A DNA stretch of 64,000 nt from Gammaproteobacteria bacterium (GTDB taxonomy: Bacteria; Pseudomonadota; Gammaproteobacteria; Xanthomonadales; SZUA-36). The stretch lies in contig JAJRRA010000045.1 in assembly GCA_024279945.1 (NCBI GenBank), positions 1 to 64,000 on the forward strand, in the 5' to 3' direction. A program made the translations under genes and the position numbers. Below the pieces are notes generated by a model, which saw only the letters and a list, made by a program, of their open reading frames with translations, made no database searches and was not told where the DNA came from. This document shows positions 18,144-38,438 of the stretch, one piece after another (within the stretch, counting starts at the first letter, position 1; every line of letters begins with the position of its first letter).

Positions 18144-18168
18144 GGACCGCAAATAGTTTCTTCACCTG

Positions 18169-18190
18169 CCAGCCTGACGGCTGGTGTTTT
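18169..18190 (+). terminator. hairpin before the tail tube gene
   Basis: 6-bp stem CCAGCC (18169-18174) / GGCTGG (18179-18184), TGAC loop, then TGTTTT. A modest terminator or attenuator separating neck genes from the tail tube gene. Confidence 0.5.
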
Positions 18191-18243
18191 GCCTCTGATG
18201 TATCGGGGGCCTTTTTACTACTTATCTATCGGAGGCATCAGCC

Positions 18244-18660
18244 ATGGCTGGATATATTGATACACAAGGCACCATTCTTAAAATAGGCGATAGTGGCAGT
18301 CCTGAAGCATTTACCACGATCCCCAACATTGTCGATATCGATGGCCCGTCTGCAGCGGCCACTGAAAAGGATGCCACAACCCTGGCGAGCACCGCAATCG
18401 AAAGCCGCCCGGGCCTGGTCGACTGGGGCAGCCTGAATCTTGAAATGATGTGGGATGAGCGTGACACAGTGCATGCTGGTATGCGCGCAGACTTCAATGC
18501 AAAGACTGTGCGGAACTTCCAACTCATCGATGCAGGATCACCTACAAAAACATACTCTAGCACCGGGTGGATCAAGACCCTGCCTGCGAACTATTCACTC
18601 AATGAATTAGTTCGGGCATCTGTTGAAATCCGCCTGACAGGCCCTCTGACGGTTGCCTGA
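18244..18660 (+). CDS. major tail tube protein
   Basis: A 138-aa beta-rich protein. The sequence begins MAGYIDTQGTILKIGD, with PNIVDIDGPSAAATEKDAT and later SLNLEMMWDERD and SSTGWIKTLPANYSLNELV. This is the pattern of siphovirus tail tube proteins of the lambda gpV/TP901-1 type. It has its own leader after a hairpin and a good binding site (CGGAGG), consistent with high expression. It is followed by the chaperone genes as in all long-tailed phages. Confidence 0.82.
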   Translation: MAGYIDTQGTILKIGDSGSPEAFTTIPNIVDIDGPSAAATEKDATTLASTAIESRPGLVDWGSLNLEMMWDERDTVHAGMRADFNAKTVRNFQLIDAGSPTKTYSSTGWIKTLPANYSLNELVRASVEIRLTGPLTVA

Positions 18661-18726
18661 TCCATAACAACGAACGGCCCGGACCCGGGCCATTACCCCT
18701 ACCTATAAAACTTAAAAGGTGAAGAC

Positions 18727-19083
18727 ATGCCAAATTTGAAAGATGCGTTAATGAGCCAGTTCTCTCTCGGTGTTGTTGAAAAAAACATTCCAGGCTTTGA
18801 CGATCCCGTGTTCATCAAAAAGCTGTCCTCAGCCGAAGTTGAGAATTTCGAAGTAGTCCGGATGAACGTGAAGACGGGCGCCCCGGATTTTTCCAAATAC
18901 CCGGGCACAAAGGCTGCGCTTATCTATCTTTGCCTGTGCGATGAAGATGGTGCCGCGATTTTTGATTCAGCAAAAGAGATCAACAGCAACATGAGTTCTG
19001 AGTTTGTTGACCTGGCACACCAGATTTGCCAGGAAGTAAATCACATGGGTGGCAAAGAAGAGGATGACGCCAGGGGAAACTGA
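18727..19083 (+). CDS. tail assembly chaperone, gpG-like
   Basis: A 118-aa acidic protein between tail tube and tape measure, the position of lambda gpG. It ends in an acidic stretch (GGKEEDDARGN). The last two sense codons plus the preceding base form G-GGA-AAC, a -1 slippery heptamer, directly before the TGA. It is expected to coat the tape measure during assembly and not to be in the virion. Start ATG 18727 follows AAAAGGTGAAG. Confidence 0.8.
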   Translation: MPNLKDALMSQFSLGVVEKNIPGFDDPVFIKKLSSAEVENFEVVRMNVKTGAPDFSKYPGTKAALIYLCLCDEDGAAIFDSAKEINSNMSSEFVDLAHQICQEVNHMGGKEEDDARGN

Positions 19084-19430
19084 TTCGGCATCCCAGCCTG
19101 GTAGCGGTTTTTGAAGTAGCCACCCAGCTTGGGATGCCAATAGGCGTGCTGGTTCAGTCCATGACCCAGTGGGAGTTAACGCACTGGCTTGCCCTCCAGG
19201 ACCTGTATCCCTCCGGTGAAAAGCGGGCGGACATGCGCATGGCCATACAAACCGCCGCGCTCGTCAACATCCACCTCCCTAAAAAATCCAAAGGTGTCAA
19301 GCCTGAAGACTACATGGTCCAGACCATGCTGGAAAAAGAAGCCGCCAAGAAATTGCGCGGATCTTCATCCGGTTTCGATAAAAAAGCCTTTTTTGCGCGC
19401 ATTGAAAGCATAGCCGTAAAGAGTACCTGA
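18727..19430 (+). CDS. gpGT fusion chaperone made by -1 programmed frameshift
   Basis: Slipping back one base at GGGAAAC (19074-19080) bypasses TGA 19081-19083 and continues ...GKLIRHPSLVAVFEVATQL into the frame that ends at 19430. That gives a G-T fusion of about 234 aa. The downstream frame is open from before the slip site to 19430, and the T part (WELTHWLALQDLYPSGEKR) has the look of lambda gpT-like domains. Dual products with a small frameshifted fraction are known for lambda-type tails. Confidence 0.8.
19074..19080 (+). promoter_or_regulatory. -1 ribosomal slippery heptamer GGGAAAC
   Basis: The heptamer is in the correct phase (G GGA AAC, X-XXY-YYZ) relative to the gpG-like frame, one codon before its stop. 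The -1 frame is the open T-like frame. No clear downstream pseudoknot was worked out by eye; lambda also lacks a strong one. Confidence 0.8.
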
Positions 19431-19431
19431 T

Positions 19432-21417
19432 ATGTCCCTCAGTAAACTGTCCATCGATCTTTCAGCCAACATCGCTAAGTTTGAATCTGATATGGGGCGG
19501 GCGGCACGGATTAGCCAAAAGCGCACCAAGCAGATGAAGCGTGATGCGAAGATTGCCGGCCGGGCGATCAGCGCTGCCTTTGTCGGTGTTGGTGTTGCCA
19601 TGGCGGCGATGGTCAAGCGCACAACGGCTGTGGCTGACCAAATGCAGAAGCTCAGTCTACGGACGGGGATCAGCACCAAGGCACTCAGTGAGTATAAGCA
19701 CGCTACAGAGCTGAGTGGCCTGTCATTTGAGCAGTGGACAAACGGTGTCAAACGTATGCAGCGGGCCTTGTCCGATGCGGATGTTGGGTTATCTACCCAG
19801 GTCCGGGCTTTTGATCGCCTGGGTATCTCCGTCGACGAACTGATGAAGCTCGAGCCTGATCAGCAGTTTGAGGCAATTGCCGAGGCAATGTCCGGCATGG
19901 AAAGCGCCACGTTGAAAAGTGCGACAGCTCAAGAGATATTCGGCCGTGCGGGTACTGAAATGCTCTCCATGATGGCGAACGGAAGGAAGGGTATACAGGA
20001 AATGCGTAAGGAGGCCGAGCGGTTTGGCTTGTCCATCGGCCAGGACTTTGCAGATAAGGCGGCACTCTTCAACGACAACATGACCCGCTTCGGTGCTCAG
20101 TTCGAGGCCATGCAGCTCCAGTTGGTTGGGGGACTGCTGCCGGCACTGATTCAGATCCAGGAACATTTCCTGAGTTCTGGAACCGCAGCATCTGATGCTG
20201 CGGATGCTGGTGAGGAATTTGGAGCATTTCTTAAAGGCGTATTGGCTGTCCTAATCGTCGCAAAAAACGCAACCTATGCCTTTACTAAAGCTCTCGTTGG
20301 TCTTTCGTCGCTTATATTTAATTCCTTTAAGGCTGTCCTGGCGCCATTATCTGGTGCAATTAATTCGATTGTTACGGCGATGGAGGATCTTAGCCAAGGC
20401 AACTTCAAGGCTGCTGCCGCTTCGATTGGACGTATGGGTCGGCTAATCGGGTCCGATTGGTCAGAAGCCCAACGTAATGTTGAAACAGCGGTCGGGTTCA
20501 TAGCTGATGAAGCATTTGGCGACCTGACAAACGGGTTATCAGAGGCGCAGGAACTCTTGGCGAGTACCGGCGAAAGTTTCAGCAAACTCACCGGGCCAGC
20601 TGAAGAAGCAAGCAATGACATCACCCTTGTATTCGCGACGCTGGACGAGCGGACGGGGGAATTCACCGGTCGGATCAAGGCCGTCAAAGATAGCCTGACT
20701 ACGTCGTTTGCCGATCTGGATGCTATTGGCGAGTTTGAGGCCAGCCTGCAGTCGTTGCTCGATACGCTCTATCCGGTCCAGGCCGCTGGCAGGGCGCTTG
20801 GTGATGATCTGGCGCTCCTGACCAAAGCCTATGAGGGTGGATCCATCAGCCTGGCTCAGTACCAGGATGCCGTTACCAGGGCGACGGCTGCGTTCAACGG
20901 ATCGGAGGCGGTGGTCGACGCCATGGAGGATGTCAATCGATCGGCTACTAGTGCCTTTACATCATTCCTGGACAACACACAATCAGCCAAAGCAGCGTTC
21001 AAGGACTTCGCTGACAGCATTACGCAGATGGCTATTAAGCTGTTCGCACAGAAGGCTATCATGGCACTGTTCGGTGGCATGGGCGGTGGGGGAGGCGGCC
21101 TCGGTGGCATCGTCAGTTCCATCTTCGGTGGTGGGCTGGCGACTGGTGGAACAGCAATGCCAGGGAAACTCTACGAGGTTAATGAAAAGGTCCCGGAAAT
21201 ATTTGACACCGGAACCAAGCAATTCATGATGACTCCGTCTGGTGGTGGCAAGGTCACTCCTATGGGGTTGGCTGCCGGCACCGGTGGCAACAACGTCACA
21301 GTCCATATCGACGCCCGTGAATCGGATAATCCAGGTCGACTTCTTGCTCTGATTCCAATCATTCAATCACAAGTCGAGCAAAGCCTCACGTTGAAATTAC
21401 GGAGGGGCTATCTGTGA
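19432..21417 (+). CDS. tail tape measure protein
   Basis: A 661-aa protein. The N-terminal region is helical and basic (MSLSKLSIDLSANIAKFESDMGRA), with a hydrophobic helix at about 48-62. The middle part is alanine- and glutamate-rich coiled coil with hydrophobic segments (about 265-300). The C-terminal region is Gly-rich (GGMGGGGGGLGGIVSSIFGGG) and ends in a small domain. At roughly 0.15 nm per residue the tail would be near 100 nm. The ATG is 1 base after the gpT stop. Confidence 0.9.
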   Translation: MSLSKLSIDLSANIAKFESDMGRAARISQKRTKQMKRDAKIAGRAISAAFVGVGVAMAAMVKRTTAVADQMQKLSLRTGISTKALSEYKHATELSGLSFEQWTNGVKRMQRALSDADVGLSTQVRAFDRLGISVDELMKLEPDQQFEAIAEAMSGMESATLKSATAQEIFGRAGTEMLSMMANGRKGIQEMRKEAERFGLSIGQDFADKAALFNDNMTRFGAQFEAMQLQLVGGLLPALIQIQEHFLSSGTAASDAADAGEEFGAFLKGVLAVLIVAKNATYAFTKALVGLSSLIFNSFKAVLAPLSGAINSIVTAMEDLSQGNFKAAAASIGRMGRLIGSDWSEAQRNVETAVGFIADEAFGDLTNGLSEAQELLASTGESFSKLTGPAEEASNDITLVFATLDERTGEFTGRIKAVKDSLTTSFADLDAIGEFEASLQSLLDTLYPVQAAGRALGDDLALLTKAYEGGSISLAQYQDAVTRATAAFNGSEAVVDAMEDVNRSATSAFTSFLDNTQSAKAAFKDFADSITQMAIKLFAQKAIMALFGGMGGGGGGLGGIVSSIFGGGLATGGTAMPGKLYEVNEKVPEIFDTGTKQFMMTPSGGGKVTPMGLAAGTGGNNVTVHIDARESDNPGRLLALIPIIQSQVEQSLTLKLRRGYL

Positions 21418-22007
21418 CTGACTATTCCTGGCCCTCATCTATTACACCCGCCACCGATAATCTGACCTGGTTGGACAATACTGTCGTGTTTCGCTCGAAG
21501 CTGGGCGGAACCATACGTACGGAGTCAAGGCCTGGAGGCCGGTGGTTTCTGTCTCTGGCTATGGAGTTGGAAAACTCTGTAGACTTGGGTTTGCTTGAGG
21601 CCTTTTTGTTTCGCCTCAATGGCGCTGAAAACAGAGCTGTTATTAAGGATTTCTCCTATGCGCGCAACGGACCAGGTGGTGGATCCCCATTGGTCAATGG
21701 CGCCAGTCAAACCGGCAAGTCTTTAATAACAGATGGCTGGACGCCAAGCACAAAAGTTCTTTATGCCGGGGACAGAATCGGGATATCCAACCAGATGATC
21801 CCTCTTGCATCTGATGCAACTTCTAATGCGTCTGGCCAGGTCACCCTATCGCTAACTCACTCTATCCGTACGGCCCCCGCCAACAATGCTGCTATAGAAA
21901 TATCTAACCCAACCGCACGTTACATCCTTGTTAATAAGGCATCATTTGCGGCCTCTCCTGGCGTTGACAAGGTTGTGTTGGCCGAGTTCGAGGAAGCGAT
22001 CCCCTAA
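21414..22007 (+). CDS. distal/minor tail protein
   Basis: A 197-aa protein starting with GTG 21414 (overlap of 4 with the tape measure stop). It contains WPSSITPATDNLTWLDNTVVF, RPGGRWFLSL, LEAFLFRLNG and GGGSPLVNGASQTG, a pattern seen in a family of phage proteins right after the tape measure gene. They are probably baseplate or tail-tip proteins like lambda gpM. The role is by position and pattern. Confidence 0.7.
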   Translation: MTDYSWPSSITPATDNLTWLDNTVVFRSKLGGTIRTESRPGGRWFLSLAMELENSVDLGLLEAFLFRLNGAENRAVIKDFSYARNGPGGGSPLVNGASQTGKSLITDGWTPSTKVLYAGDRIGISNQMIPLASDATSNASGQVTLSLTHSIRTAPANNAAIEISNPTARYILVNKASFAASPGVDKVVLAEFEEAIP

Positions 22008-22636
22008 TGGTTTCCGCTCTGAACAAGGCGGAACTCGAGTCCGCTCACTCCCGCCGCATCTATTTTATCTATCTGAATTTTGCGGTGTCGCCGTTTTATG
22101 CCTGCACGGGTGATCGCGATTACGTCTGGAACAGCATTACCTGGAATGGTGTTGGTGATATTTCTGGTATATCAGATATAGCTGACGCCGCAGATTCAGC
22201 AGCCAGGCCGGTAACTATTACATTGACCGGCGTTGACGCCTATGTCACTGATCCAATCCAAAGCAGGACCAATTATAAGGGCCGGGCTGCAATGATCTAC
22301 AGGGGGTTTTTGGACAGCAATGATGATCTGGTAGATACTCCCGAAACCAGATTTTCCGGACTCATGGACGTTGGCACCATGATTCGCGATGAAAACTATG
22401 TGGCTCAAATTGTCTGTGAGCCGATTGCCGCCCGGTATCTCCGGGCCCACATATCACGCTATTCAGATGAAGACCACCAATTACGTAACCCTGGTGACAA
22501 ATTCTACGAGTTTCAGCCGCAGATGGAGGCGAAGGATGTGACCTGGGGCGGTAAGCGAATCTCCCCAGCGGCCGGATGGAGTGGAGGCAGCGGCGGGCCA
22601 ATCGGGCCCGGCCGCGGTTTCAGGCGTATATTCTGA
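22007..22636 (+). CDS. tail tip assembly protein (gpL-like position)
   Basis: A 209-aa protein overlapping the previous stop (TAATG) and the next start (TGATG). Sequence such as IYFIYLNFAVSPFYACTGDRDYVWNSITWNGVGDI and VTITLTGVDAYV is typical of phage tail proteins around the tip with a beta-sandwich. The C-terminal end is Gly/Pro-rich and low-complexity (GWSGGSGGPIGPGRG). Role inferred from order after the tape measure. Confidence 0.65.
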   Translation: MVSALNKAELESAHSRRIYFIYLNFAVSPFYACTGDRDYVWNSITWNGVGDISGISDIADAADSAARPVTITLTGVDAYVTDPIQSRTNYKGRAAMIYRGFLDSNDDLVDTPETRFSGLMDVGTMIRDENYVAQIVCEPIAARYLRAHISRYSDEDHQLRNPGDKFYEFQPQMEAKDVTWGGKRISPAAGWSGGSGGPIGPGRGFRRIF

Positions 22637-25600
22637 TGGGCTTGTTCAAGAAATTAATCGGTATCGCGGTTGGTGTTGGCCTGCTATTTGTACCGGGAAT
22701 GCAATTGGCTGGCGTCGGCCTGATCATGGGCAGTGTATCAGCCATGCTGATTAAAACGCCTGGTGCAGCTCGGCGGCTGCAAGAGCAAAGTGTGATGGTT
22801 CGCTCTTCGGTCAAAGCCCAGGAGATCCTCTACGGCGAAGATCGTAAATCTGGAGTGGTTGTTTACTTCGACACCAGCGGATCAGAAAATGAATATCTCT
22901 GGTTTGTTATCGCAGTTGTAGAACATGAGATCGACAGCTACACGACCCTCTGGTTCGATGATGCACCGATCGATATCGCGACTGAGATTGATGTCAGCGG
23001 GTTTGTTACACTTGCGAAATATGTCGACGCTGACGGTACTCAGTTAGTCAAGACGGGATTCTACACAGGGGCCGCGTCACAGACTGCTGATGCTGATCTT
23101 GTTGCCGCATTTACCGACTGGACTACCAGCCACAATGGCCACAATGTTGCTTATTTTTGGGTGCGGCTGCAGCTGGATAAATCGGACGGCGGCACAGACC
23201 CCGATTTGCCGGAAGCTAACGTGTGGGCTAAGGGTTACCCCAGATCCATAGCGGTAACCGCCAAGGGCAAAAAGATTTATGATCCGCGTCTGGATGACCT
23301 CAACGGTGGAACTGGCTCCCACCGAGTCGATACAGAGTCCACATGGGAGTGGTCGGACAACCCTGTTCTGATCCGCACCGATTACCTCCGGTCAAGCCGG
23401 TTTGGGCCATCGCCACCGCTGATATCATCTGATATCGACTGGCCGACCGTTATTGCGCATGCCGACATCTGTGATGAACTGGTGTCTATACCAGGATCTA
23501 CGACACAGAAACGCTATCAGTTTAATGGCGTTGTCGAGGTTTCGGGTACTCCGAAATCAATACTTGAGTCAATGCAGTCTGCTGATCATGGTGTGACGTT
23601 AACCCTGACCTCTGGAGTCGAAGTCCGGGTGGGCGTGTGGGAGACATCGTCGCACACGATTGATGATACTTGGTTGGCCGGGACATACACATTTACGTCA
23701 GCGGTCGCGATGGACAATGCTTATAATGCTGTTCGTGGACAGTTCTTGTCAGCGGCCGATGACTACGCTCTTATCGAGTTTCAACCACAAACGTCAGCAG
23801 CTTATGAGACCGAGGACGGCGTAGGGCGAGTATTTCAGGATGTTGTTCTGCCATTCACCAATGAGGAATATGCTGCCCAGCGCCTGGCGATCATTGAACT
23901 GAAAAAATCACGGCAGCAGAAGTCTGTCCAGATTCAATGCAATTACCGGGCTGAGTTGGTTTCTCTCTATCAGATTGTTACGCTTGATTTGCCCGGCTTC
24001 TCTCTGGATACATTTCGCGTAATCGGTATCAGTTCCAACATGATGGACGGCATAACTACCCTGCATCTGCGCGAAGAGGTGGCCACTGACTGGACCTACG
24101 ACGTTGCCGATCTGGCCACTCCACCAGTTATCCCCTCGATTATCCGTAGTGATGATGGGGTTCCGCCACCTACTGGTCTTACCACGGCCTCCGGTCCGGA
24201 CGGGATCTGGTTAACCTGGACATCACCCAGCATGCAGAACGTCCTGCAGCTGGAGATCTACGCATCAGCAACGAACGATCGCAGCACTGCGTCTTTTGTA
24301 TCGGCTGAGTTCGGCGAAACCTATTTCCACCAGCTCCCCGTTGGAACTGTCAGGTACTACTGGATCCTGGCCCGCGGCAGGAATGGCCTGGTGTCTACGT
24401 GGCATCCGACAGGTGCAACATCAGGAGTTTCTGGTACGGCTGGCGGTGAAAATGTTGTTTATTACATCAAACCGCTGTCCGGAACTGCGATTAAAAATGG
24501 GTCAGGAACGCTGACCATTGAGGCTCATAAAATCAGTGGTGGGGTGGATGCCATTTTATCGGCTGGCACCATCAAGCTGTATGACCCCAGCAACCTCGTG
24601 GTTACCGCGGCGAATGGGTATGTGACCGGATCGGACGGGTATACCGGAATCCTGGATTCCGGCGACATCTCAGGAGCCAAGATAATCACGCTGAAAGATG
24701 GTATTGGTGGTACTGCCCTGGATACGGTGTCTCTGGTCGACATCGCAGATGGAGGAGCTGGCTCCGATGCGGTCTATGGATATATCGAAGCATCCAATAC
24801 TCTGGCCTGGACCCGGGCGATCAACGCGGGATTATGGACTCCTGCATCTCTGACCACGGATCTCGATGTCACCTTCGTTCAGGGTGGTATTGAAGTCGCC
24901 CGGATTGCTAGGCGGATTACCCTGACATCAAGCACTGGTGTATTAAACGTAACAACAACGACCCACAAAAATGGCGACCTGAATACGGCACGGGTCACAG
25001 TAAGCAATTCAGGTGCAGGCTCCACAGCCCTTACATCACAATATGATTATTCGTACGGTGGTGACGCTGCATCCGTTGCCGAGACGGTTAGTTCAGCTCA
25101 GGGAGGCAGTGATGGGGCAACTGGCGCATCAGGTGTTGATGGCATGACGTTTGTACTCAGTAATGCCGCGCACACAATCCCCACTGACTCCGCCGGAAAT
25201 AACGGCGATTACACCGGATCCGGAACTACGATCAGGGTTTACGAAGGCGCGACAGAATTAAACTATGACGGCATAGGGACCTCTGCTAGCACGTGGAAAA
25301 TCGGCACGATTGTCGATACCAACATCACAGTAGGCACCACCACCGACAGCGGAGCGTACGCAACAATCGGCGTTGCCAGTGCAATGACCGCAGACACCGC
25401 TTCGATTGATTACCCGATTTCTGGCAAACGCGCTGACGGCACTGCATTTAGCATCACTCTCACCCAGACGTTTGCGAAAGCAAAAGCGGGCAGCACTGGC
25501 GGAGGAACCAGCAACCCGGTACAACTGACCGGCGGTACTGTTTCCGACAGCAGCTTGACACCAACAGATGCACGGGCCGAGTGGGGTTTGTACGGAGACG

Positions 25601-25896
25601 GCAAGGAAAAGAAAAAACTGGGAACAGCATCGTATGTGATTATTGCGGACTGGCTGATCTCAGGGGCACTTGCTGACTATGATGTCAAATGCACTGTTAA
25701 CTCCGGCACGACACCATCCGGTAGCGCCAATGGATCATGGCTAAATCTGGCAACGTTCCGGTATTGGTATCTGACCGACACGTCATCAATTGGCGGGGTT
25801 ATCACTTGCAACCTCACCATCGAAATCAGAAACGCCATCACGACAACCGTGATAGATACGGCAACCGTAATTCTTAAAGCCCAAGAATCAGCATAG
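22636..25896 (+). CDS. tail tip / host-specificity protein (gpJ-like) with FN3 domain
   Basis: A 1086-aa protein from ATG 22636. The N-terminus has a hydrophobic glycine-rich region (about 4-45), unusual but common in this family, then a gpJ-like tail tip domain (about 60-500, YLWFVIAVVEHEIDSYTTLWFDDAP). A fibronectin type III module follows at about 510-600 (PPPTGLTTASGPDGIWLTW). The last about 450 residues are beta-rich and probably carry receptor contact. It ends the tail operon. Confidence 0.8.
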   Translation: MGLFKKLIGIAVGVGLLFVPGMQLAGVGLIMGSVSAMLIKTPGAARRLQEQSVMVRSSVKAQEILYGEDRKSGVVVYFDTSGSENEYLWFVIAVVEHEIDSYTTLWFDDAPIDIATEIDVSGFVTLAKYVDADGTQLVKTGFYTGAASQTADADLVAAFTDWTTSHNGHNVAYFWVRLQLDKSDGGTDPDLPEANVWAKGYPRSIAVTAKGKKIYDPRLDDLNGGTGSHRVDTESTWEWSDNPVLIRTDYLRSSRFGPSPPLISSDIDWPTVIAHADICDELVSIPGSTTQKRYQFNGVVEVSGTPKSILESMQSADHGVTLTLTSGVEVRVGVWETSSHTIDDTWLAGTYTFTSAVAMDNAYNAVRGQFLSAADDYALIEFQPQTSAAYETEDGVGRVFQDVVLPFTNEEYAAQRLAIIELKKSRQQKSVQIQCNYRAELVSLYQIVTLDLPGFSLDTFRVIGISSNMMDGITTLHLREEVATDWTYDVADLATPPVIPSIIRSDDGVPPPTGLTTASGPDGIWLTWTSPSMQNVLQLEIYASATNDRSTASFVSAEFGETYFHQLPVGTVRYYWILARGRNGLVSTWHPTGATSGVSGTAGGENVVYYIKPLSGTAIKNGSGTLTIEAHKISGGVDAILSAGTIKLYDPSNLVVTAANGYVTGSDGYTGILDSGDISGAKIITLKDGIGGTALDTVSLVDIADGGAGSDAVYGYIEASNTLAWTRAINAGLWTPASLTTDLDVTFVQGGIEVARIARRITLTSSTGVLNVTTTTHKNGDLNTARVTVSNSGAGSTALTSQYDYSYGGDAASVAETVSSAQGGSDGATGASGVDGMTFVLSNAAHTIPTDSAGNNGDYTGSGTTIRVYEGATELNYDGIGTSASTWKIGTIVDTNITVGTTTDSGAYATIGVASAMTADTASIDYPISGKRADGTAFSITLTQTFAKAKAGSTGGGTSNPVQLTGGTVSDSSLTPTDARAEWGLYGDGKEKKKLGTASYVIIADWLISGALADYDVKCTVNSGTTPSGSANGSWLNLATFRYWYLTDTSSIGGVITCNLTIEIRNAITTTVIDTATVILKAQESA

Positions 25897-25911
25897 GAGC
25901 ATGATATAAAA

Positions 25912-26040
25912 ATGGCATTTATCGGCGGTATCATTTTGGCCGTAGCAGTAGTGTGGATTATTTACCGAAACAAGTCTGGGAAGCCCGTCATACCGGGTAC
26001 GGGTGGTGGCAGCAATCGGCCGCCGAAGCACCGGCAATAG
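25912..26040 (+). CDS. 42-aa single-pass membrane protein at the prophage end
   Basis: A small ORF from ATG 25912 with AGGAG 15 bases upstream. One hydrophobic helix (MAFIGGIILAVAVVWIIY) precedes a short basic, Gly/Pro-rich tail (GTGGGSNRPPKHRQ). It is the last phage ORF before the att site and could be a lysogenic-conversion or superinfection-exclusion protein, though nothing proves it. The ORF is very short; coding potential rests on RBS and membrane pattern. Confidence 0.5.
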   Translation: MAFIGGIILAVAVVWIIYRNKSGKPVIPGTGGGSNRPPKHRQ

Positions 26041-27893: not shown

Positions 27894-29567
27894 TTAATCG
27901 TGCACGATCTCTTTGATGGCTTTCTCCCGCATGATAAATTTCTGGATTTTTCCGGTTACCGTCATCGGGAATTCTTCAACGATCCGAATGTGTTTTGGGA
28001 CCTTGTAATAGGCGATCTGTTCATTGCAGTAATCCCGCACGTCATCCGCCGTCAGTGTTTCGCCTTCATTTAGCCGGATCCAGGTGGCGACCGCCTCGCC
28101 AAACTTTTTATCCGGCACACCAAACACGGCCGCCTCCTGGATTTTTGGATGCTGGAACAGGTATTCCTCGATTTCGCGTGGATAGATGTTTTCACCGCCC
28201 CGGATAATCATGTCCTTGACCCGCCCAACGATATCGCAATAACCCTCATCATCAATCATCGCCAGATCACCGGTATGCATCCAGCCTGCTTTGTCGATAC
28301 CTTCTTTGGTGCGCTCATCATCATCCCAGTAACCAAGCATGACACTGTAACCTCGGGTACAGAGTTCGCCCGAAGTGCCTCTTGGCACCACCGCACCCTG
28401 TTTGTCGATGATCTTGACCTGTACATGAGGGTGTACCCGCCCGACCGTTGATACCCGTTTTTCCAGGGGGTCATCGGTAGCACTCTGAAAACTGACCGGG
28501 CTGGTCTCGGTCATGCCGTAACAAATCGTGACCTCGTCCATATGCATTTCGCTGATCACATTACGCATGACTTCAATTGGACAGGGCGCTCCGGCCATGA
28601 TCCCGGTGCGCAAATGGCTGAAATCAAATGTTTTGAAAATTGGGTGCTCCAATTCGGCGATAAACATGGTGGGTACCCCATGCAGGGCCGTGCACCGTTC
28701 CTCACTGACTGCTTCGAGTACGGCAAGTGGCTCAAAAGCCTCTGATGGGAAAACCATGGCTGCACCGTGCGTAACACTGGCCAGCACCCCAAGCACCATT
28801 CCAAAACAGTGGTATAGCGGCACCGGGATACACAGACAATCTTTTTGGGTCAGCTTCATTGCCTGACCGCAAAAATACCCATTGTTCAACACATTAAAAT
28901 GCGTCAGTGTGGCACCCTTGGGTAACCCTGTGGTGCCACTGGTGAACTGGATATTGATGGCGTCATCTGGCTGGTTGGCCAATGCTCGGGCACGCAACTG
29001 ATCGGCTGCATTCGGGGGTGCCATGGCGGCAATATCGTCAAAACGAATCATGCCGGCCACGGGTTCGTCATTGATGACAATCAGCGACTGAAGCTCTGGC
29101 AATTCCGGCAGATTGAGTGGGCCGTCACCGGATGTGTTGATACCCGGTGCTATATCACGCAACATGCCAATATAATCGCTACTCCTGAACTCACTGGCCA
29201 GGATTAGTGACTTGCAGCCAACCTTGTTGAGCGTATAACTGAGCTCAGCCTTGCGGTAGGCGGGATTGATATTGACCAGGATCAGGCCGGCTTTCGCCGT
29301 TGCGAACTGTGCAATCACCCATTCGATATTATTAGGCGACCAGATCCCAATTCGATCACCCGCTTGCAACCCCAGAGAAAGCAGGCCACCGGCAAATGCA
29401 TCGACAGCTTCGCCGAACTGCCGATAGGACCAGCGAATACCCTGGTGGCGAACAACGATGGCTTCTTTGTCACCCCATTGCTCCACCGCCTTATCAAAGG
29501 CATCGCCAATGGTCTGGTAAATCAATGCCTGGTCGCTGGTACCGCATACAAAGCTATTTGGCGTCAT
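27894..29567 (-). CDS. acyl-CoA synthetase (AMP-binding, ACSF2-like)
   Basis: A 557-aa adenylate-forming ligase. The P-loop [13 protein letters not shown] lies near residue 210, YGMTETSP near 350, the hinge/ATP-binding [27 protein letters not shown] near 430-460 and the catalytic lysine region TGKIQKF at the C-terminus. It activates a carboxylate to acyl-AMP then acyl-CoA, resembling ACSF2-type medium-chain ligases. ATG 29567 is 5 bases after the MFS stop; a GTG at 29579 overlapping the MFS end is an alternative. It is second in a leftward operon with the transporter. Confidence 0.9.
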
Positions 29568-29571
29568 CGTC

Positions 29572-30837
29572 TTATTCACTTAGTCTCATATCTGCTTCTA
29601 TCGATTTTGCTGCAAACAGAAAATTGCTCCCCGCCAAAACCGCGACAAATGCTGTACCTATCATGGCATAGCGCAATGCATTGTCACCATATACCGGGTT
29701 CAATAAGTCACTGGTGTATCCAATAAGCAACGGAGCGAGACCTATACCCAGCATACTGATTGAGAACATGCCAATTGCGGACGCCGTTGCCCGCATATTA
29801 GGCGGCATCACGCTCATCATAGCTGCCATTTGTGGTCCAACTGCAACCCCAAACAATGCACTTCCAATTGAAATAAAAACAAAGGCCATATTCGGTTCCG
29901 GCACTGACAGTGCGATGATAAATATGGGTGCACAGCCAATATATGCGATCGCGGTTATCCAAACTAACCAACGCTCATCTCTTAGTATGAGAACGTTGGC
30001 AAGCTTACCGCCAATTAACATGCCAATAAATTGCCCTCCTCCATAGGCCAGACCAAACCATGCACCCACCTGCGATGTAGTCAGGTGGTGTAAGCGAATA
30101 AAAAATGGAGGTGCCCATTGTATAATTCCGTATATCATGAACATTCCGAAAATACTGCCAGACAAGATGTGTAAATAAGACCTATTCTGCAAAATAAAGC
30201 GAAATACTTCCGACACATTCGTGGGTGCAACATCAACATTACCATCATGTTGTCCACGTTCCGGCTCTTTCAACATAAAATAGGTAATAACGGCAAGGAT
30301 TAAACCAGGCAGACCCAATAGCAAGAATGCCGACCGCCACCCATAAGTTTCTCCAACCCAACCACCTATTGAAAAACCCGCAGCAACACCAACGGTCATC
30401 CCCGTCGAAAAAATGGCTAACGCAAAGGCGCGTTGTTCTTTTGGAAAGCAATCAGAAATCAACGAATGCGCAGTCGGTATGCAACCGGCTTCACCGATAC
30501 CAACACTAAACCGGGCAATTAACAGATGTGTAAATGTTTGCGCCAGGCTCGTTAGTATGGTCATAGCACTCCACAATGTCATCGCCAGGGTAATGATATT
30601 TTTTCTTATTCCTCGATCCGCCCAGCGTGCAATCGGCAGCCCCATGACAGCGTAGAAAACAGCAAAGGCAAAACCGGTCAGTAAGCCTAACTGTGCATCA
30701 CTAAGCCCCATATCCTCCTTGATAGATTGACTGAGAACCGCAAGGATCATACGGTCCATATAATTGACGGTGTTAATAAGGAATAAAATCACCAACACAT
30801 AGCGCATGTTTGAGTCAGTAACCTGGTTTGGTTGCAT
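29572..30837 (-). CDS. MFS transporter (spinster-like)
   Basis: A 421-aa protein with about 12 transmembrane segments. The N-terminal part [34 protein letters not shown] and the loop 2-3 motif PIARWADRG are typical of spinster/ACS-like MFS carriers. ATG 30837 with AAAGGAT upstream is chosen over the upstream GTG-type extension to 30888. It precedes the acyl-CoA ligase, suggesting import of the organic acid that the ligase activates. Substrate unknown. Confidence 0.88.
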
Positions 30838-30905
30838 ATTTAATCCTTTTATTGTTTGAACCGGACCCAAGTTACTTTTATGAACCATTCCGGTAAAGAA
30901 TATTT

Positions 30906-30923
30906 TATTTCATAAAGTGAATA
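30906..30923. promoter_or_regulatory. candidate operator, copy 1 (TTCA-N5-TGAA)
   Basis: TATTTCATAAAGTGAATA, an imperfect palindrome with TTCA/TGAA arms. It differs at two of 18 positions from the reverse strand of the site at 32843-32860. It lies between the leftward MFS operon and the rightward dipeptidase gene, covering the -35 position of the TATAAT box at 30930. Confidence 0.6.
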
Positions 30924-30929
30924 CTGTAT

Positions 30930-30935
30930 TATAAT
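30930..30935 (+). promoter_or_regulatory. -10 box of the dipeptidase promoter
   Basis: A perfect TATAAT. A usual -35 is not visible, since the place 16-17 bases upstream is filled by the operator-like palindrome (ATTTCA). This is consistent with a regulated promoter whose activity depends on a protein bound there. Confidence 0.5.
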
Positions 30936-31023
30936 GAACTTACGACAGATTAATACCCCGACTTAGGGTTTTAACTAATCAACCTGCTGCAAAAATATAT
31001 AAAGTTTGGACAAGATAAAGACC

Positions 31024-32130
31024 ATGCACATTAAAAACCAATATCAGGTATTTTTCGATTCCGACAAAGAATATCCCGTTGAAGTCATTGACTTATTACA
31101 AGAATCTGTTGTGATTGATATGCTTCACCCGATTGAGTTCGTAAGTTGCCGGGCAGAACAATGGATACAAAACCCTGAGAAGGTTTCGTTAGATGTTTTT
31201 GAGCGATACCAGGAGTCCGGCCTGAAAAGTATTTGCACCGGTCACGTAACCAGTGGCCCTGAGGCCTATATCACCTACCTCAAACTCATTGCGTCATGGA
31301 ATAGCATTATTTCCAGTAATGATGATAAATTTCTCAAGATTACAAAAGTAGATGATTTCGATCGAGCCAGGGCAGATGGGAAGCTTGGAATATTATTAAG
31401 CAACCAATGTTCTGATCATTTTCGTACTATTGACGATGTCAGTTTTTTTTACAATCTGGGTCAACGCATTTCACAATTGACTTACAATGAACGCAATCGA
31501 ATTGGTGATGGATCAACCGAGCGTACTGATTCTGGGATTAGTGATTTTGGTGTAGATATAATAGAAAAGATGGACCAACTGGGGATGGCTGTTGACGTAT
31601 CCCACTGTGGGGATCGCACGACGCTGGATGCCTTTGAATTTTCTAATAAACCCGTATTGATGACGCATGCCAATTGCCGAGCGCTCAACGATCATCCCCG
31701 CTGCAAAACCGATGAGGCCATTAAAGAAATGGCAAAAAATGGTGGTGTGATGGGAATTACTTTCCTGAGAATGTTCGTACGAGGAGAGGATCCTGTAACA
31801 CTGGACCACGTTATCGACCATTATGAGCATATAGCAAAGCTGGTTGGTGTCGAACACCTTGGTCTGGGAACAGATTACGATTTATACGGCTACGATCAAA
31901 TGCTTCCTGATGAGTTGGAGGCGATGAAACAATCCTTCAAACGCAGTTACGCTGTTCGAAAAAAAGTAGATATAGAAGGCCTCAATCACCCCAAAAAGAT
32001 ATTTGACCTGGCAAATGGATTGTTAAATAGAGGATTTAGCAAGACGGAAATTATTGCTATTCTGGGGGGTAATTTGAAACGTGTTCTTAAAGACGTATTC
32101 ATCCCTGATCCGTCATCTTTAAATAACTGA
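31024..32130 (+). CDS. membrane-dipeptidase family (M19) amidohydrolase with altered metal ligands
   Basis: A 368-aa protein from ATG 31024 (TTG 31006 in frame is an alternative). The family core is clear: LTYNERNRIGDGSTERTDSGISDFG, DVSHCGDRTT, MTHANCRAL and LGLGTDYD carry the second-site histidines and the aspartate. The usual N-terminal HxD appears as VIDMLHP and the bridging Glu region as LSNQCSD. This matches an M19 subfamily that has Gln there, so activity may differ from classical dipeptidases. No signal peptide, thus probably cytoplasmic. Confidence 0.8.
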   Translation: MHIKNQYQVFFDSDKEYPVEVIDLLQESVVIDMLHPIEFVSCRAEQWIQNPEKVSLDVFERYQESGLKSICTGHVTSGPEAYITYLKLIASWNSIISSNDDKFLKITKVDDFDRARADGKLGILLSNQCSDHFRTIDDVSFFYNLGQRISQLTYNERNRIGDGSTERTDSGISDFGVDIIEKMDQLGMAVDVSHCGDRTTLDAFEFSNKPVLMTHANCRALNDHPRCKTDEAIKEMAKNGGVMGITFLRMFVRGEDPVTLDHVIDHYEHIAKLVGVEHLGLGTDYDLYGYDQMLPDELEAMKQSFKRSYAVRKKVDIEGLNHPKKIFDLANGLLNRGFSKTEIIAILGGNLKRVLKDVFIPDPSSLNN

Positions 32131-32140
32131 ATGCTGGTGA

Positions 32141-32752
32141 TTAGCTCGATTTCTTGCCCATCAAGTTGTCAAACAAATCTGTTGCGCCGGCGACGACATT
32201 TAGAATAGTGGCATCTTCTTCACTAACTGATATATAGGCGTGCCCCATATGCGCATCGAAATATACCGAGTCGCCACTTTCCAATACCCTGGCTGCATAA
32301 TGTTCAATGTGCACTTCAACGGCCCCGCTTAATACGAAGACAAACTCTTCACCTGCATGGGAAATCAGGTTTTTAAATTCATTTATAGAACGTGCCGTAA
32401 CTGTTACAAAAGTTGGATCCATCAGTTTCCGGGTAAGCTGTGTCCCCAGTGGTTCATAAATATAAGTTGAGGCAGGGTGCTTCTCCCTCATCCGGGCAAG
32501 CGTAACCGCATAACGAGTGAGGCTCCCGGTAGTCTCAGCTTCAAAGATGGGTGACCCAATATTCAGCAGTGTGGACAGGTCGACATCCAGCCCCTTGACA
32601 AGCTTCAGTAAATTGTCATAGGTCGGTGAAATCTTGCTATTTTCAGTTTTGGACAGGGTAGATTGTGCAAGCCCGGATCTTTCGCTAAGTTGTCGTAAAG
32701 TCAACCCTTTTTTCTTTCTTAAAAACCTCAGATGTGGGCCAAAGTGTGCCAT
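32141..32752 (-). CDS. XRE-cupin transcriptional regulator
   Basis: A 203-aa protein. The HTH lies at about residues 8-60 (LRFLRKKKGLTLRQLSERSGLAQSTLSKTEN); the C-terminal cupin at about 115-195 has HAGEEFVFVLSGAVEVHIEH and ESGDSVYFDAHMGHAY. Regulators of this design sense small ligands in catabolic clusters (PuuR-like). It sits convergent to the dipeptidase gene, 10 bp from its stop, and divergent from the TonB receptor. It is the natural candidate to bind the two shared palindromes. Confidence 0.85.
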   Translation of the reverse strand: MAHFGPHLRFLRKKKGLTLRQLSERSGLAQSTLSKTENSKISPTYDNLLKLVKGLDVDLSTLLNIGSPIFEAETTGSLTRYAVTLARMREKHPASTYIYEPLGTQLTRKLMDPTFVTVTARSINEFKNLISHAGEEFVFVLSGAVEVHIEHYAARVLESGDSVYFDAHMGHAYISVSEEDATILNVVAGATDLFDNLMGKKSS

Positions 32753-32842
32753 TATTTTCCAATCCCGTTTCCATCGAACATCATTATTTTAATAATTTTA
32801 CTGTAATTTCCCCGGCGAGTCATATATTTCCTATTGGATATT

Positions 32843-32860
32843 TATTCATTATATGAAATA
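32843..32860. promoter_or_regulatory. candidate operator, copy 2 (TTCA-N5-TGAA)
   Basis: TATTCATTATATGAAATA; its reverse complement is 16/18 identical to the site at 30906-30923. It lies in the AT-rich 202-bp divergent region between the regulator gene and the TonB receptor. Two copies in the two divergent intergenic regions of one cluster point to one regulon. Confidence 0.6.
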
Positions 32861-32954
32861 ATACTTTCTCAATACGACAAAATATTTTTCACGCTATATA
32901 CCAATGCAGGGAACGTACATCAATAGAAGTATCTCGTAATGAGAGGGAATTACA

Positions 32955-35186
32955 ATGCCACTTTCAAAAAGAATTTCACCAAATCAATTATCATCTTTAA
33001 ATTTTCGTAAACGGTTAAATACATGCCTGTTTACGGGCGTTTTGATGCTCGCTCTGATACCGGTTTGTCATGCCCAGGAAATGCAACTTGAAGAGGTAGT
33101 GGTAACGGCTTTGAAACGATCAAGCTCGTTGCAGGACACTCCCATAAGTATATCCGCCTTGACTGGAGATACCCTGGATAAGCTGGGTGCAAATAGTTTT
33201 ATCGACTATGTTAACCACGTCCCGGGGTTGACAATTGTGGACGAGGGGCCCGGTTTCCGACGCCTGGTTATCCGTGGTGTTCAGGGGGTTGGGGAAGCTC
33301 AGGTAGGTCTTTATTACGATGAAACTCCGGTGACCGGAGCACCCAGTTCCGGCAATAACGCCGGTGCTTCTCAACCGGATTTCAGGCTATTTGATGTCGA
33401 ACGAGTAGAGGTGTTGCGTGGGCCACAGGGGACGCTATACGGTGCCGGCTCCATGGGTGGAACAGTTCGTGTAATTGCCAATAAGCCGGATTCCACAAAA
33501 TTTGAAGCGTTGGCTGAGGCCGAGTTTTCATCAACAAGAAATGCCGGTCTGGGATATCAGGTAAAAGGTATGGTTAATATCCCCATCATAGAAGGCAAAC
33601 TCGCCGGACGTGCCGTGGCATTTTATGAAGATACCGATGGTTTCATTGACAACGGTCGGCTCGGTCTAAAGGGCATCAACGATGCGAAAATTCGGGGAGG
33701 ACGTTTTTCCCTGCGCTTTGATGTCAATGACAGTTTCAACTTAATCGCCACTGCTTATATTCAACGGACAGATCTTGGCGCGTCTAATGCCTTTTCCAAG
33801 CCGAGTGGTGACTTGCTGGCCATCGATTTCGTCAAAACTGATCATAAAGATGATTTTGAGATCTTCAATATTACGGGTAGTTATGATTTTGACTGGGGCA
33901 ATTTCCTATTTACATCTTCTTACTACAATCGGGACACATCCAGGAATATCGACACTACGGACTTCCTGATGGGGCTTGTTGGCATCCCTGTGCCACCGCT
34001 TGGATCACCAACCCCGGTAATACCGGGCCTTATACCTGCCATGGTACGTCCGACAGATGACATTAATATTTGGAGTCATGAAATACGTTTGAATTCGTCG
34101 GGTGAGAACCGACTTAATTGGACTATTGGCGGTTTTTTACAAGATCGGCAAAGCAATCTCACTAACCAGGTTCTCCCCACCGATATTAAGGGTGACATAC
34201 CATCACCGATGGTTGAGTTATTTACCCGTACCGCCGCCGAAAATTTGAAGCAAAAAGCGGTATTTGGTGAAATTTCCTATGACGTATTGGAAAGCTTCAC
34301 ACTGACTTTTGGCGCGCGTTATTTTGATGTGAAAAAAGTCAATAATTCAGCCGTAACCGTGGGTTTTGGACCGTTCCCACCGGGACCTGGCCCCGAATTA
34401 AATTATGATGACGATGGTGTGCTGCTTAAATTCCACGGCAAATACGTTATCAATGAGAATGCAATGATATACGCACAGGCTGCTGAGGGATTCCGTGTTG
34501 GCGGCGCCAATCAAAAAACACTTGTCGAAGTGCCTGATTCATATGGTTCAGATAGTTTATGGAGCTACGAAATCGGTGCCAAAACCAGTTGGCTGGACAA
34601 TCACTTAAACGTTAATATCGCTGCCTATTACATTGATTGGAAAGACATCCAAACACCCGCGTCTATCGGACCGTTTAATTTCATAAGCAACGCTGGCGGG
34701 GCTAGAATCCAGGGTGTAGAAATAGAAATATTCAGCCAACTGACGAACAGCTTCAGCATCGACGGGAACTTGACGTTATCTTCTTCGAAGTTGACAGAGG
34801 ATCAAGACCCTGCATTCATCGCCAATCCAGGCAGAAAGGGGGATAATATCCCCTATGTACCAGACATAACGGCCTCTTTATCCGCACAGTATGTTCGTTC
34901 AGTCTTCAGCGACCTGGAGGGGTTAATAAGGCTGGATATGAGCTACACTGGAGGTTCTGCATCGAAATTTAATCCTGCCGATGTTTATTATGAAACATTA
35001 GACAGCTATTTTTTGGCACAAGTGAAAGTTGGGATCACGTCCGAAGATTGGGCTGTATATTTATTTGCACACAATCTATTTGATAAACGCGCGGAGGTTA
35101 GAATACTCAGCGACCAGTTCCGCACCCAGACTCAATTTACCGTACAGCCCAGAACATTCGGTTTGACATTCCGAAAATCTTTTTAG
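32955..35186 (+). CDS. TonB-dependent outer membrane receptor
   Basis: A 743-aa protein. The signal peptide ends near A40 (PVCHA), followed by the TonB box region MQLEEVVVTALKR. The plug domain is at about 50-170 (DTPISISALTGD, VEVLRGPQGTLYGAGSMGGTVRV) and a 22-strand-type barrel follows, ending in the aromatic GLTFRKSF (terminal F). It is of the type seen for many organic substrates, not specific to iron. It has a GAGAGGG binding site just before the ATG. Confidence 0.9.
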   Translation: MPLSKRISPNQLSSLNFRKRLNTCLFTGVLMLALIPVCHAQEMQLEEVVVTALKRSSSLQDTPISISALTGDTLDKLGANSFIDYVNHVPGLTIVDEGPGFRRLVIRGVQGVGEAQVGLYYDETPVTGAPSSGNNAGASQPDFRLFDVERVEVLRGPQGTLYGAGSMGGTVRVIANKPDSTKFEALAEAEFSSTRNAGLGYQVKGMVNIPIIEGKLAGRAVAFYEDTDGFIDNGRLGLKGINDAKIRGGRFSLRFDVNDSFNLIATAYIQRTDLGASNAFSKPSGDLLAIDFVKTDHKDDFEIFNITGSYDFDWGNFLFTSSYYNRDTSRNIDTTDFLMGLVGIPVPPLGSPTPVIPGLIPAMVRPTDDINIWSHEIRLNSSGENRLNWTIGGFLQDRQSNLTNQVLPTDIKGDIPSPMVELFTRTAAENLKQKAVFGEISYDVLESFTLTFGARYFDVKKVNNSAVTVGFGPFPPGPGPELNYDDDGVLLKFHGKYVINENAMIYAQAAEGFRVGGANQKTLVEVPDSYGSDSLWSYEIGAKTSWLDNHLNVNIAAYYIDWKDIQTPASIGPFNFISNAGGARIQGVEIEIFSQLTNSFSIDGNLTLSSSKLTEDQDPAFIANPGRKGDNIPYVPDITASLSAQYVRSVFSDLEGLIRLDMSYTGGSASKFNPADVYYETLDSYFLAQVKVGITSEDWAVYLFAHNLFDKRAEVRILSDQFRTQTQFTVQPRTFGLTFRKSF

Positions 35187-35318
35187 GTATAAACACCCTT
35201 TCGGTTAAGTGTACTTCCGGAATCAGCAGCTGTTATTTGAATTACCTGGCGCATAACAATTGAGCACCTTCGATACGAACAATTCAACATTACTAACTTA
35301 AGCAACGGTCGATCAAAT

Positions 35319-36299
35319 ATGTGGATTTTGAGCAGGGAAGATGTAATAACACTTTTGCCCATGGATGAATGTATCGATGTAATTAGTAAAGCCATGCGGG
35401 CGACGTCTTCTGGAGATGTATTTCTACCATCACGTACTGCTATGAGTGTCCCTTTTGCTCACAACGCAATGCTTGGATACATGCCGGGTTATTTGAAGCA
35501 GCCGGTATGTTTTGGTGCAAAGCTAATTACTGTCTTTCCCTTGAATAAACAAAACGGTCATCAGTCACATTCCGGGGTGATTGTTCTTTTTGAGCCTGAA
35601 ACCGGCCAAACACAAGCCATAATTCATGCAGGTGAAATTACTGCTATTCGAACGGCCGCAGCAAGTGCCGTCGCCACACAGATGTTAGCGAGAGAAGATG
35701 CCAGTCACCTTACAATTCTTGGGAATGGTGAACAGGGACATCAACATCTTATCGCCATGAGTGAAATCAGGAATATCACTCATGTACGAATTTGGGGAAG
35801 ATCGTTTAGCCATGCTCAACAATTCGCGACCCAATTTTCAAAACAATATGGTATTGATATCGAGGCAATTGAAGATATCGAAATTGCAGTTAAATCTGCA
35901 GATATCATTTGTACAACCACTTCATCTTGCAAGCCTCTTTTGAAAGGCAGTTGGCTGGCGCAAGGCACACATATAAATGCAGTTGGCGCGAGCCTCGCTG
36001 ATCAGGCGGAAGTCGATATAGAAGCTGTAAAACGCTCACGATTCTATGTTGATTATAAACCTTTGGCAAAAGAACAAGCTGGAGAATACCTTAATGCTTT
36101 GGCAGCCAACACCATTAACGAGGAACATATGATTGGGGAGATTGGTGAAGTCCTGTTGGGCAAGGTAAAGGGCAGGACATCTTCAAATGAGATTACTCTC
36201 TACAAATCTCTTGGTGTAGCCACACAAGATCTTGCTGCTTCTATTTATGTCTATGAGAAAGCTATTCACCAAAATATCGGATGGCAAGTAGATTTCTGA
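35319..36299 (+). CDS. ornithine cyclodeaminase / mu-crystallin family oxidoreductase
   Basis: A 326-aa protein with NAD(P)-binding Rossmann motif LGNGEQGHQHL near residue 138 and the substrate-side ITAIRTAAASAVATQ near 107-121. The family includes ornithine cyclodeaminase, alanine dehydrogenase, ketimine reductase and enzymes making or breaking amino-acid-derived imines. It lies 132 bp downstream of the TonB receptor, same strand, with its own short leader. It probably processes the imported amino acid-like substrate. Confidence 0.85.
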   Translation: MWILSREDVITLLPMDECIDVISKAMRATSSGDVFLPSRTAMSVPFAHNAMLGYMPGYLKQPVCFGAKLITVFPLNKQNGHQSHSGVIVLFEPETGQTQAIIHAGEITAIRTAAASAVATQMLAREDASHLTILGNGEQGHQHLIAMSEIRNITHVRIWGRSFSHAQQFATQFSKQYGIDIEAIEDIEIAVKSADIICTTTSSCKPLLKGSWLAQGTHINAVGASLADQAEVDIEAVKRSRFYVDYKPLAKEQAGEYLNALAANTINEEHMIGEIGEVLLGKVKGRTSSNEITLYKSLGVATQDLAASIYVYEKAIHQNIGWQVDF

Positions 36300-36493: not shown

Positions 36494-37449
36494 ATGATCC
36501 GCGCACGCTCATACCTGTATATTTTCCTGTGTTGCGCCCTGGCTGCCGCACTTTTTCCGGCACCGTTTCGGCGCAGGACAACCTTTTGACCAATGGAGGA
36601 TTCGATCAGGATTTGTCGGGCTGGGAGAATCCCTGGGGCAACCGGGGCGAATGGAACTCACTGGATGCCGCCGGTAGCGCGTCGTCGGGTTCGGCGCTGC
36701 TCTATAACGAAGGTGAGAGTAACGGTGGAGTACCAACGGTTCTGGTTCAATGTTACAAGTTCAGAGGGGATGGAGATTTCGAATGGGGAGGGCAGGTTCG
36801 CGTCCTCCCGGGTCAGCCGAATGGGACTTCTGCCCAAATTTTCATTGCCACCTATAATACGGATAATTGTGCAGGAGAGTCGCTGGAAAGAAGCAGCGTC
36901 GGTTCGCCAGCCGTTGGTAGCTGGCTTCTGGTCAATAAACGAATCACCGCCAGTATCTCCACTTCCAGCATTGGGATTTCACTCGGTGTGCTCAAACCGA
37001 GCGGAGAGACAGCAACTGCCAGCGGCTATTTTGATAACGTATTCCTGCGCCAGTCAGATACCGGATTTCGCCTGATCGATGAAAGGTTTTCGGGATCCTG
37101 GTACAACCCTGACTTTCCCGGCCAGGGCATCATTATCGACATCTCACGCGTCATTAAACTGTTTTTTGGTGGTTGGTACACCTGGACTACAACGCCGGGC
37201 GAAATCGACTGGATGACCTTGCAGGGAGAGTTCACGGGTGAACTCGCAAAGCTCAAGATCTACCGCAGCAGTGGGGGCAAGTTCGTTGATCCGGCGGCCG
37301 TTACGACGGTGCCGGTTGGTGTGGCCGAAATTCGCTTCATAAGTTGCACCGAGGCTGAGTTCTTCTTCCAGTTCGACGGTGAAGCCAACGTCACAACGGT
37401 GCCCCTTACGCGGCTTACGCCGCCGTTCAGAGGTTGCGAAGAAGAGTGA
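36494..37449 (+). pseudogene. secreted two-domain protein, paralogue 1, frame broken in the signal peptide
   Basis: ATG 36494 (with GAGGGGG upstream) reads MIRARSYLYIFLCCALAAALF and then stops after 31 codons. One added T in the T run 36552-36556 gives ...ALFSGTVSA-QDNLLTNGG and joins the open frame to 37449 (about 318 aa). The mature part resembles the next gene throughout: a galactose-binding-like module (NGGFDQDLSGW), then a domain with GSWYNPDFPGQG and GGWYTW. As read, the exported form cannot be made. Confidence 0.75.
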
Positions 37450-37484
37450 TGTCTTTAATACATACAAGAATCGAGGGAACAAAC

Positions 37485-38438
37485 ATGACCCGCGTACGCC
37501 CATATCTGAATATTGCCCTGTTTTGCACCCTGGCTGCGGTGCTTTTTTCCGGCTCCGCACTGGCAGGTGAGAACTATTTGACCAATGGAGGGTTTGATGA
37601 GGATCTGTCGGTCTGGGTTAACACCTGGGATCGGCGGGGCGAGTGGGATCCACTCGATGCCGCCGGGGATCCGGCTTCAGGTTCAGCTCTGCTCTATAAC
37701 GAAGGTGAGAGCAATGGTGCGACACCATTAGTGCTGGATCAATGTGTCCGGTTTGGTGGTGCGCAGTCTCTCGAATGGGGGGGGCAGGTCCGCATCCCAT
37801 CAGATCAGCCGAATGGGACTACCCCCAATATTTTCTTCCTGACCTTTCCTGAGGACAATTGCGGCGGAAGTTTTCTGCAATTGGAAAATGTCGGTACACA
37901 GACCGTTGGCGACTGGGTTGCAATCAACAACCAGGTCATCACCGACCCTGCTACTGCCAGCATTAGGATTTCGCTTGGCCTGTCCAAACCAAATGGTGAG
38001 ACAGCAACTGCCAGCAGCTATTTTGACGATGTCTACCTGCGCCGGACTGATTCCACCTACCGTTTCATCGACGACAGGATGACGGGGTCCTGGTACAACC
38101 CTGACTTTCCCGGCCAGGGCTTTGTTGTCGACATTTCACCCAGCATCAGCCTGTTTTTCGGTGGTTGGTACACCTGGACCGACACGCCGGGCGCTATCGA
38201 CTGGATGACCTTGCAGGGAGAGTTCTCGGGTGAGGTCGCAAATCTCAAGATCTACCGTAGCAGTGGGGGCAAGTTCCTCGATCCAACGGAAGTCACCACG
38301 GTGCCGATTGGTGTGGCCGAGGTTCGCTTCATAAGTTGCACTGAGGCTGAACTCTTATACAAGTTCGATGGTGAAGGCGATTTCACTCTGATGCCCCTGA
38401 TGCGGCTCCTGCCGGCGTTCTATGACTGCGTCGACTGA
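37485..38438 (+). CDS. secreted two-domain protein, paralogue 2
   Basis: A 317-aa protein from ATG 37485 (GAGGGAAC upstream). The signal peptide ends near ALAGEN (about residue 26). The first domain (NYLTNGGFDEDLSVW, residues about 28-190) looks like a carbohydrate-binding CBM4/9-type jelly roll. The second (about 195-317) has GSWYNPDFPGQGFVVDIS and LFFGGWYTW, a repeated-type domain common in secreted gammaproteobacterial proteins of unknown role. It lies 35 bp after paralogue 1; same layout and clear sequence similarity show a tandem duplication. Confidence 0.75.
   Translation: MTRVRPYLNIALFCTLAAVLFSGSALAGENYLTNGGFDEDLSVWVNTWDRRGEWDPLDAAGDPASGSALLYNEGESNGATPLVLDQCVRFGGAQSLEWGGQVRIPSDQPNGTTPNIFFLTFPEDNCGGSFLQLENVGTQTVGDWVAINNQVITDPATASIRISLGLSKPNGETATASSYFDDVYLRRTDSTYRFIDDRMTGSWYNPDFPGQGFVVDISPSISLFFGGWYTWTDTPGAIDWMTLQGEFSGEVANLKIYRSSGGKFLDPTEVTTVPIGVAEVRFISCTEAELLYKFDGEGDFTLMPLMRLLPAFYDCVD

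Follow-up and report, generated by a model that had tools for sequence, protein, structure and literature searches.

Eight XRE-cupin regulators are known in Pseudomonas aeruginosa, and all of those with determined regulons are repressors that bind beside their own gene (PMC7901475). Where motifs have been derived, their operators are palindromes that differ from regulator to regulator, and inhibition by these proteins is thought to proceed by occlusion of core promoters (PMC7901475). PsdR has two sites, which surround psdR; it represses mdpA, which encodes a metallo-dipeptidase, and dppA3, a gene for peptide uptake (PMC7901475). Its proven operator in Pseudomonas aeruginosa is TTAAG-N5-CTTAA (PMC10965056).

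The locus described here lies in a window of 64,000 nt (the whole stretch of DNA analyzed) from a gammaproteobacterial genome. It resembles the PsdR system in that two sites, also of 5-N5-5 form (TTTCA-N5-TGAAT), lie around an XRE-cupin gene, beside genes for an (M19-type) dipeptidase-family protein and for uptake proteins. It differs in its half-sites, TTTCA and TGAAT, and in its genes, which encode an M19-like protein, an MFS transporter and a TonB receptor rather than MdpA and DppA3; we claim no orthology. The XRE-cupin architecture is also that of PuuR from Escherichia coli, a repressor released by its ligand. However, the regulator scores 47.3 bits, over the HTH region only, against the cut-off of 211 of NCBIfam NF007408, and its assignment as a PuuR equivalog was rejected because this score is far too low. 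Here, neither the PsdR consensus nor the 15-bp motif of PuuR had matches better than those in shuffles.

Gene Content and Sequence Elements of the Cluster

The genes of the cluster, assigned with Pfam, and the elements found between them by sequence are as follows.

27894 to 29579, minus strand: AMP-binding acyl-CoA ligase, also above the cut-off of NF009233; overlaps the MFS gene by 8 bp
29572 to 30837, minus strand: MFS transporter; the start at 30837 is preceded by AAGGA, and the open frame reaches 30888
30905 to 30923, plus strand: site 1 (operator-like), TTATTTCATAAAGTGAATA, core TTCA-N5-TGAA, in the MFS/M19 divergent intergenic region over the −35 position of the M19 promoter
30930 to 30935, plus strand: TATAAT, candidate −10 box of the M19 gene; its −35 position, under site 1, has no good hexamer
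31024 to 32130, plus strand: M19-family (renal dipeptidase-like) protein without the HxD motif and bridging Glu
32141 to 32752, minus strand: XRE-cupin transcriptional regulator (HTH_3 + Cupin_2), presumed to bind the sites; best solved relative, 1y9q
32843 to 32861, minus strand: site 2 (operator-like), TTATTTCATATAATGAATA, in the XRE-cupin/TonB divergent intergenic region, ~90 bp upstream of both start codons
32848 to 32853, minus strand: TATAAT within site 2, facing the XRE-cupin gene; candidate −10 box with no convincing −35
32955 to 35186, plus strand: TonB-dependent outer-membrane receptor
35319 to 36299, plus strand: ornithine cyclodeaminase (OCD)/mu-crystallin family enzyme

In the regulator, an N-terminal HTH of the XRE/Cro-CI type (HTH_3, 2e-13) is joined to a C-terminal Cupin_2 domain (1.6e-12). 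The acyl-CoA ligase gene probably comes second in the MFS operon, and the OCD gene is possibly cotranscribed with the TonB gene. Two tandem genes on the plus strand at 36529 to 38438, neither with a Pfam match, encode products with 63% identity over 295 aa and represent a tandem duplication. Upstream of the cluster, at ~17000 to 26000, phage tail-type genes (for example, 22576 to 25896) suggest a prophage, as judged from their sequences.

Symmetry and Promoter Context of the Two Sites

An earlier note on this DNA had described the sites as near-identical 18-bp palindromes with TTCA-N5-TGAA arms. Both 18-mers, TATTTCATAAAGTGAATA (30906 to 30923, plus strand) and TATTTCATATAATGAATA (32843 to 32860, minus strand), were found where it had placed them and agree, as it had counted, at 16 of 18 positions; on extension, identity grows to 18 of 21 (TTTTATTTCATAAAGTGAATA and TATTATTTCATATAATGAATA). 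The arms are present in both sites, and the regions that hold them are indeed divergent intergenics of one cluster, MFS(−)/M19(+) and XRE-cupin(−)/TonB(+). The term palindrome overstated the symmetry, since neither site is a symmetric 18-mer and their common symmetric core, TTCA-N5-TGAA, measures 13 bp. Site 1 is symmetric in its 4+4 bp arms only, and in site 2, 9 of 12 positions pair around the same center; its inverted repeat reads TTCAT-N3-ATGAA. An inverted-repeat, operator-like element thereby adjoins the regulator's own gene.

Promoter predictions around both sites were weak: TATAAT occurs downstream of site 1 and within site 2, each with a weak −35 match. The claim that site 1 overlies the −35 of a TATAAT box held for its position, but no TTGACA-like hexamer is found there. 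Many activator-dependent promoters likewise have no good −35 hexamer, which would fit an alternative in which the XRE-cupin protein, bound at both sites, is mainly an activator or controls part of the cluster only. Against activation, the P. aeruginosa XRE-cupin proteins of determined regulon are inhibitors without exception (PMC7901475). We regard activation or partial control as distinctly improbable.

The Site Pair Is Specific to the Cluster

To gauge chance, we shuffled the two intergenic regions (both 69% AT) 1,500 times with dinucleotides kept and counted pairs in either orientation. A 16/18 pair arose in 14 of the 1,500 shuffles and an 18/21 pair in 3. These frequencies are to be weighed against the AT richness of the intergenics and against the choice of the pair, in the earlier note, after a view of all 64 kb. 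Because shuffles of such regions do reach these matches, the pair taken alone is suggestive, not overwhelming, and only moderately improbable. The main remaining rival explanation is that two AT-rich intergenics match by chance and were chosen by eye; the ~1% of shuffles with a 16/18 pair and the many region pairs that could have been inspected speak for it. On the other side are the rarity of the 18/21 pair, the centering of both sites on an inverted repeat with the half-site spacing of PsdR, their location in the two regulatory regions that flank the only regulator, the want of further genomic copies and the recurrence of the pattern in relatives (loci L047, L182 and L118, described below). 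With these taken together, a chance match is unlikely.

Within the 64-kb window, three matches with at most three mismatches were found versus 0.03 expected. The third, at 18592, was rejected; it has three mismatches and lies inside a phage-type gene. Across the whole genome (3.92 Mb), sites 1 and 2, both flanking the regulator, were the only places with at most two mismatches, there being no third. At three mismatches, the genome held three matches to the 18-mer and five to the 19-mer, versus two control matches each. All but one of the six that were checked, that at 18592 among them, lie inside predicted genes, and the remaining one abuts a gene start; because these matches do not exceed the control level and fall almost entirely in coding sequence, they were rejected. 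Thus, with no third place at two mismatches or fewer, and with three-mismatch matches near the control level and almost all in genes, the site pair is specific to this cluster. The genome-wide search that the earlier note had proposed therefore turned up no multitude of random copies and did not refute its reading. In a second cluster of the same genome (L057, C78:1-9000), an XRE-cupin gene is divergent from genes for an MFS transporter and a TonB receptor; the window motif has no copy at the regulator of this paralogous cluster.

The number of sites also bears on an alternative in which they serve a different regulator, such as ArgR, Fur or some other global factor, and the XRE-cupin protein binds elsewhere: for a global factor, more than two sites would be expected. 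The TonB receptor and OCD genes of the cluster would suit such a factor, as would an ARG-box-like match (TGGATATTTATTCA, 13/14) that overlaps site 2, but site 1 has no ARG-box match. The 97%-complete genome gave no PF01316 match, whereas control genomes do match, and ArgR was rejected for want of its gene. Fur was rejected as well, its best box matches being no better than those in shuffles. Control by another regulator is therefore very unlikely.

Homologous Clusters Carry Operator-Like Sequences of Their Own

A scan of genome contigs with the regulator alone returned no relative. Samples at the family, order, class and phylum levels, together with genome contigs, yielded no close ortholog of the regulator or of the cluster as a whole; relatives from the same family are <40% identical, and the two congeners (assemblies 77 to 83% complete) have neither the M19 gene of the cluster nor a close regulator. 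For these reasons, the exact sites cannot be footprinted by conservation.

Among 80 loci with relatives of the M19 gene, ~18 also include an XRE-cupin gene in the DNA examined, often plus a TonB receptor gene (in Povalibacter, Steroidobacter, Rudaea, Arenimonas, Sphingomonas, Euryhalocaulis and others). Clusters such as L113, L153, L158 and L182, from Arenimonas, Rudaea, Povalibacter, Steroidobacter and other bacteria, link the same XRE-cupin, M19 and TonB families as the window, and in several the regulator is preceded by operator-like inverted repeats. They differ in that their regulators are less than about 45% identical to ours, their operator is of the TCCTGATTAGA type and their gene order is usually different. 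Strong inverted repeats of their own precede the regulators of L113 (TCCTGATTAGA..TCTAATCAGGA), L114 (TTTTCTAAT..ATTAGAAAA) and L148 and L163 (AGTTGCGTATACGAAACT). In two loci the repeats are paired: cluster-specific 21-mers that agree at 19 of 21 positions occupy the XRE and M19 promoters of L182 (Arenimonas) and the XRE and TonB promoters of L118. Each of these pairs arose in 0 of 200 shuffles in a test in which the window 21-mer pair arose in 1 of 200; they differ from the window sites in sequence and equal them in strength. The same test gave no second common site upstream of M19 or TonB in many other relatives' loci, partly because the M19 gene there already adjoins the XRE gene, from which it diverges.

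The regulators nearest to that of the window are ~44 to 47% identical, 50% at best, and some of them adjoin gcvT-gcvH-gcvP. The gcv-adjacent regulators (L045, L047 and similar), among the closest by sequence (~44%), have the motif RTTTCC-N4-RGAAAC near the regulator gene; this motif of the closest clade occurs 11 times in 1.92 Mb of loci, and XRE-relative loci account for 8 of these matches. In L047, where a copy stands on each side of the regulator, ahead of gcvT, the first of the two is directly followed by TATAAT. This clade and the window sites have the left half-site ATTTC in common. The gcv loci differ in that the regulators would, by position, regulate gcvTHP, in a spacing one base shorter and in having no M19 or TonB gene. 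We treat the resemblance between the two motifs as a lead rather than a test. Overall, the comparison of homologous clusters that the earlier note had suggested points to the same logic, worked out with operator-like sequences particular to each cluster (the L182 and L118 pairs and the flanking sites of L047).

As a separate observation, the XRE-cupin regulators of L037, L039, L045 and L047 adjoin gcvTHP with GTTTCC-N4-GGAAAC palindromes. Judged by this arrangement, they are probable gcv regulators; a literature search found no description of gcv XRE-cupin regulators.

A Likely Local Repressor and Its Predicted Mode of Action

We consider it likely that a local XRE-cupin repressor, encoded between the two sites, uses them as its operators. 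The proposal of the earlier note that the XRE-cupin protein is the binder gains support from the uniqueness of the sites in the genome, the paired sites of homologous clusters and the literature on local XRE-cupin repressors, which together argue for this protein as the probable binder of the sites. Its binding, repression, autoregulation and release by a ligand are predicted here by analogy with its family. An XRE-cupin dimer would bind each TTTCA-N5-TGAAT element. Occupancy of site 1 would block the M19-like promoter and perhaps also the divergent MFS-ligase operon, and occupancy of site 2 would do the same to the gene for the TonB receptor, perhaps to the OCD gene and, in probable autoregulation, to the regulator's own gene. 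A small molecule tied to the imported or processed substrate would then bind the cupin domain and release the dimer, turning the whole unit on. Because the sites flank the regulator gene and recur nowhere else at this similarity, the regulator most likely switches only its neighbors.

The system is a sound, if ordinary, instance of an already known type of local switch in bacteria. A broader proposal, which we put forward tentatively and which may well not hold, is that the pair marks a local switch governing an uptake module that is widespread yet undescribed and consists of the XRE-cupin regulator, the TonB receptor, the MFS and OCD proteins and an M19-like protein whose metal site is altered. 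Its substrate would be peptide-like, and every lineage would have evolved an operator sequence of its own together with the regulator. A literature search returned nothing direct on an M19/TonB/XRE-cupin module. The relatives indicate that an XRE-cupin/M19-like/TonB module recurs in several proteobacterial groups, with operators that can be read by comparison. For an uncharacterized uptake cluster, the local-repressor model offers a testable operator and a small regulon, and knowledge of its inducer would show which substrate the TonB receptor and the unusual M19-like protein handle.

The M19-Like Protein and the Base Composition of the Cluster

The product of the gene at 31024 to 32130, labeled a dipeptidase in the earlier note, belongs to the M19 family but lacks some of its metal-ligand residues: the HxD motif and the bridging Glu, ligands in canonical M19 dipeptidases, are absent. 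It shares this feature with its subfamily (relatives L119-L198), in which DML replaces HxD in 76 of 76 alignable members, Gln stands at the position of the bridging Glu in 77 of 77, and two His and the late Asp are retained. Dipeptidase is therefore to be taken as a family name only. As these residues suggest, the metal site and the reaction of the protein may differ from those of true dipeptidases. The subfamily is broad, with members in Acidobacteria, Gemmatimonadota, Bacteroidota and Proteobacteria.

The genes from MFS to OCD (29572 to 36299) contain 42 to 46% G+C versus 54 to 55% in two measured outer stretches of the window. Because of this low G+C content and the absence of the M19 gene and a close regulator from the two congeners, horizontal acquisition of the MFS-to-OCD block is probable.
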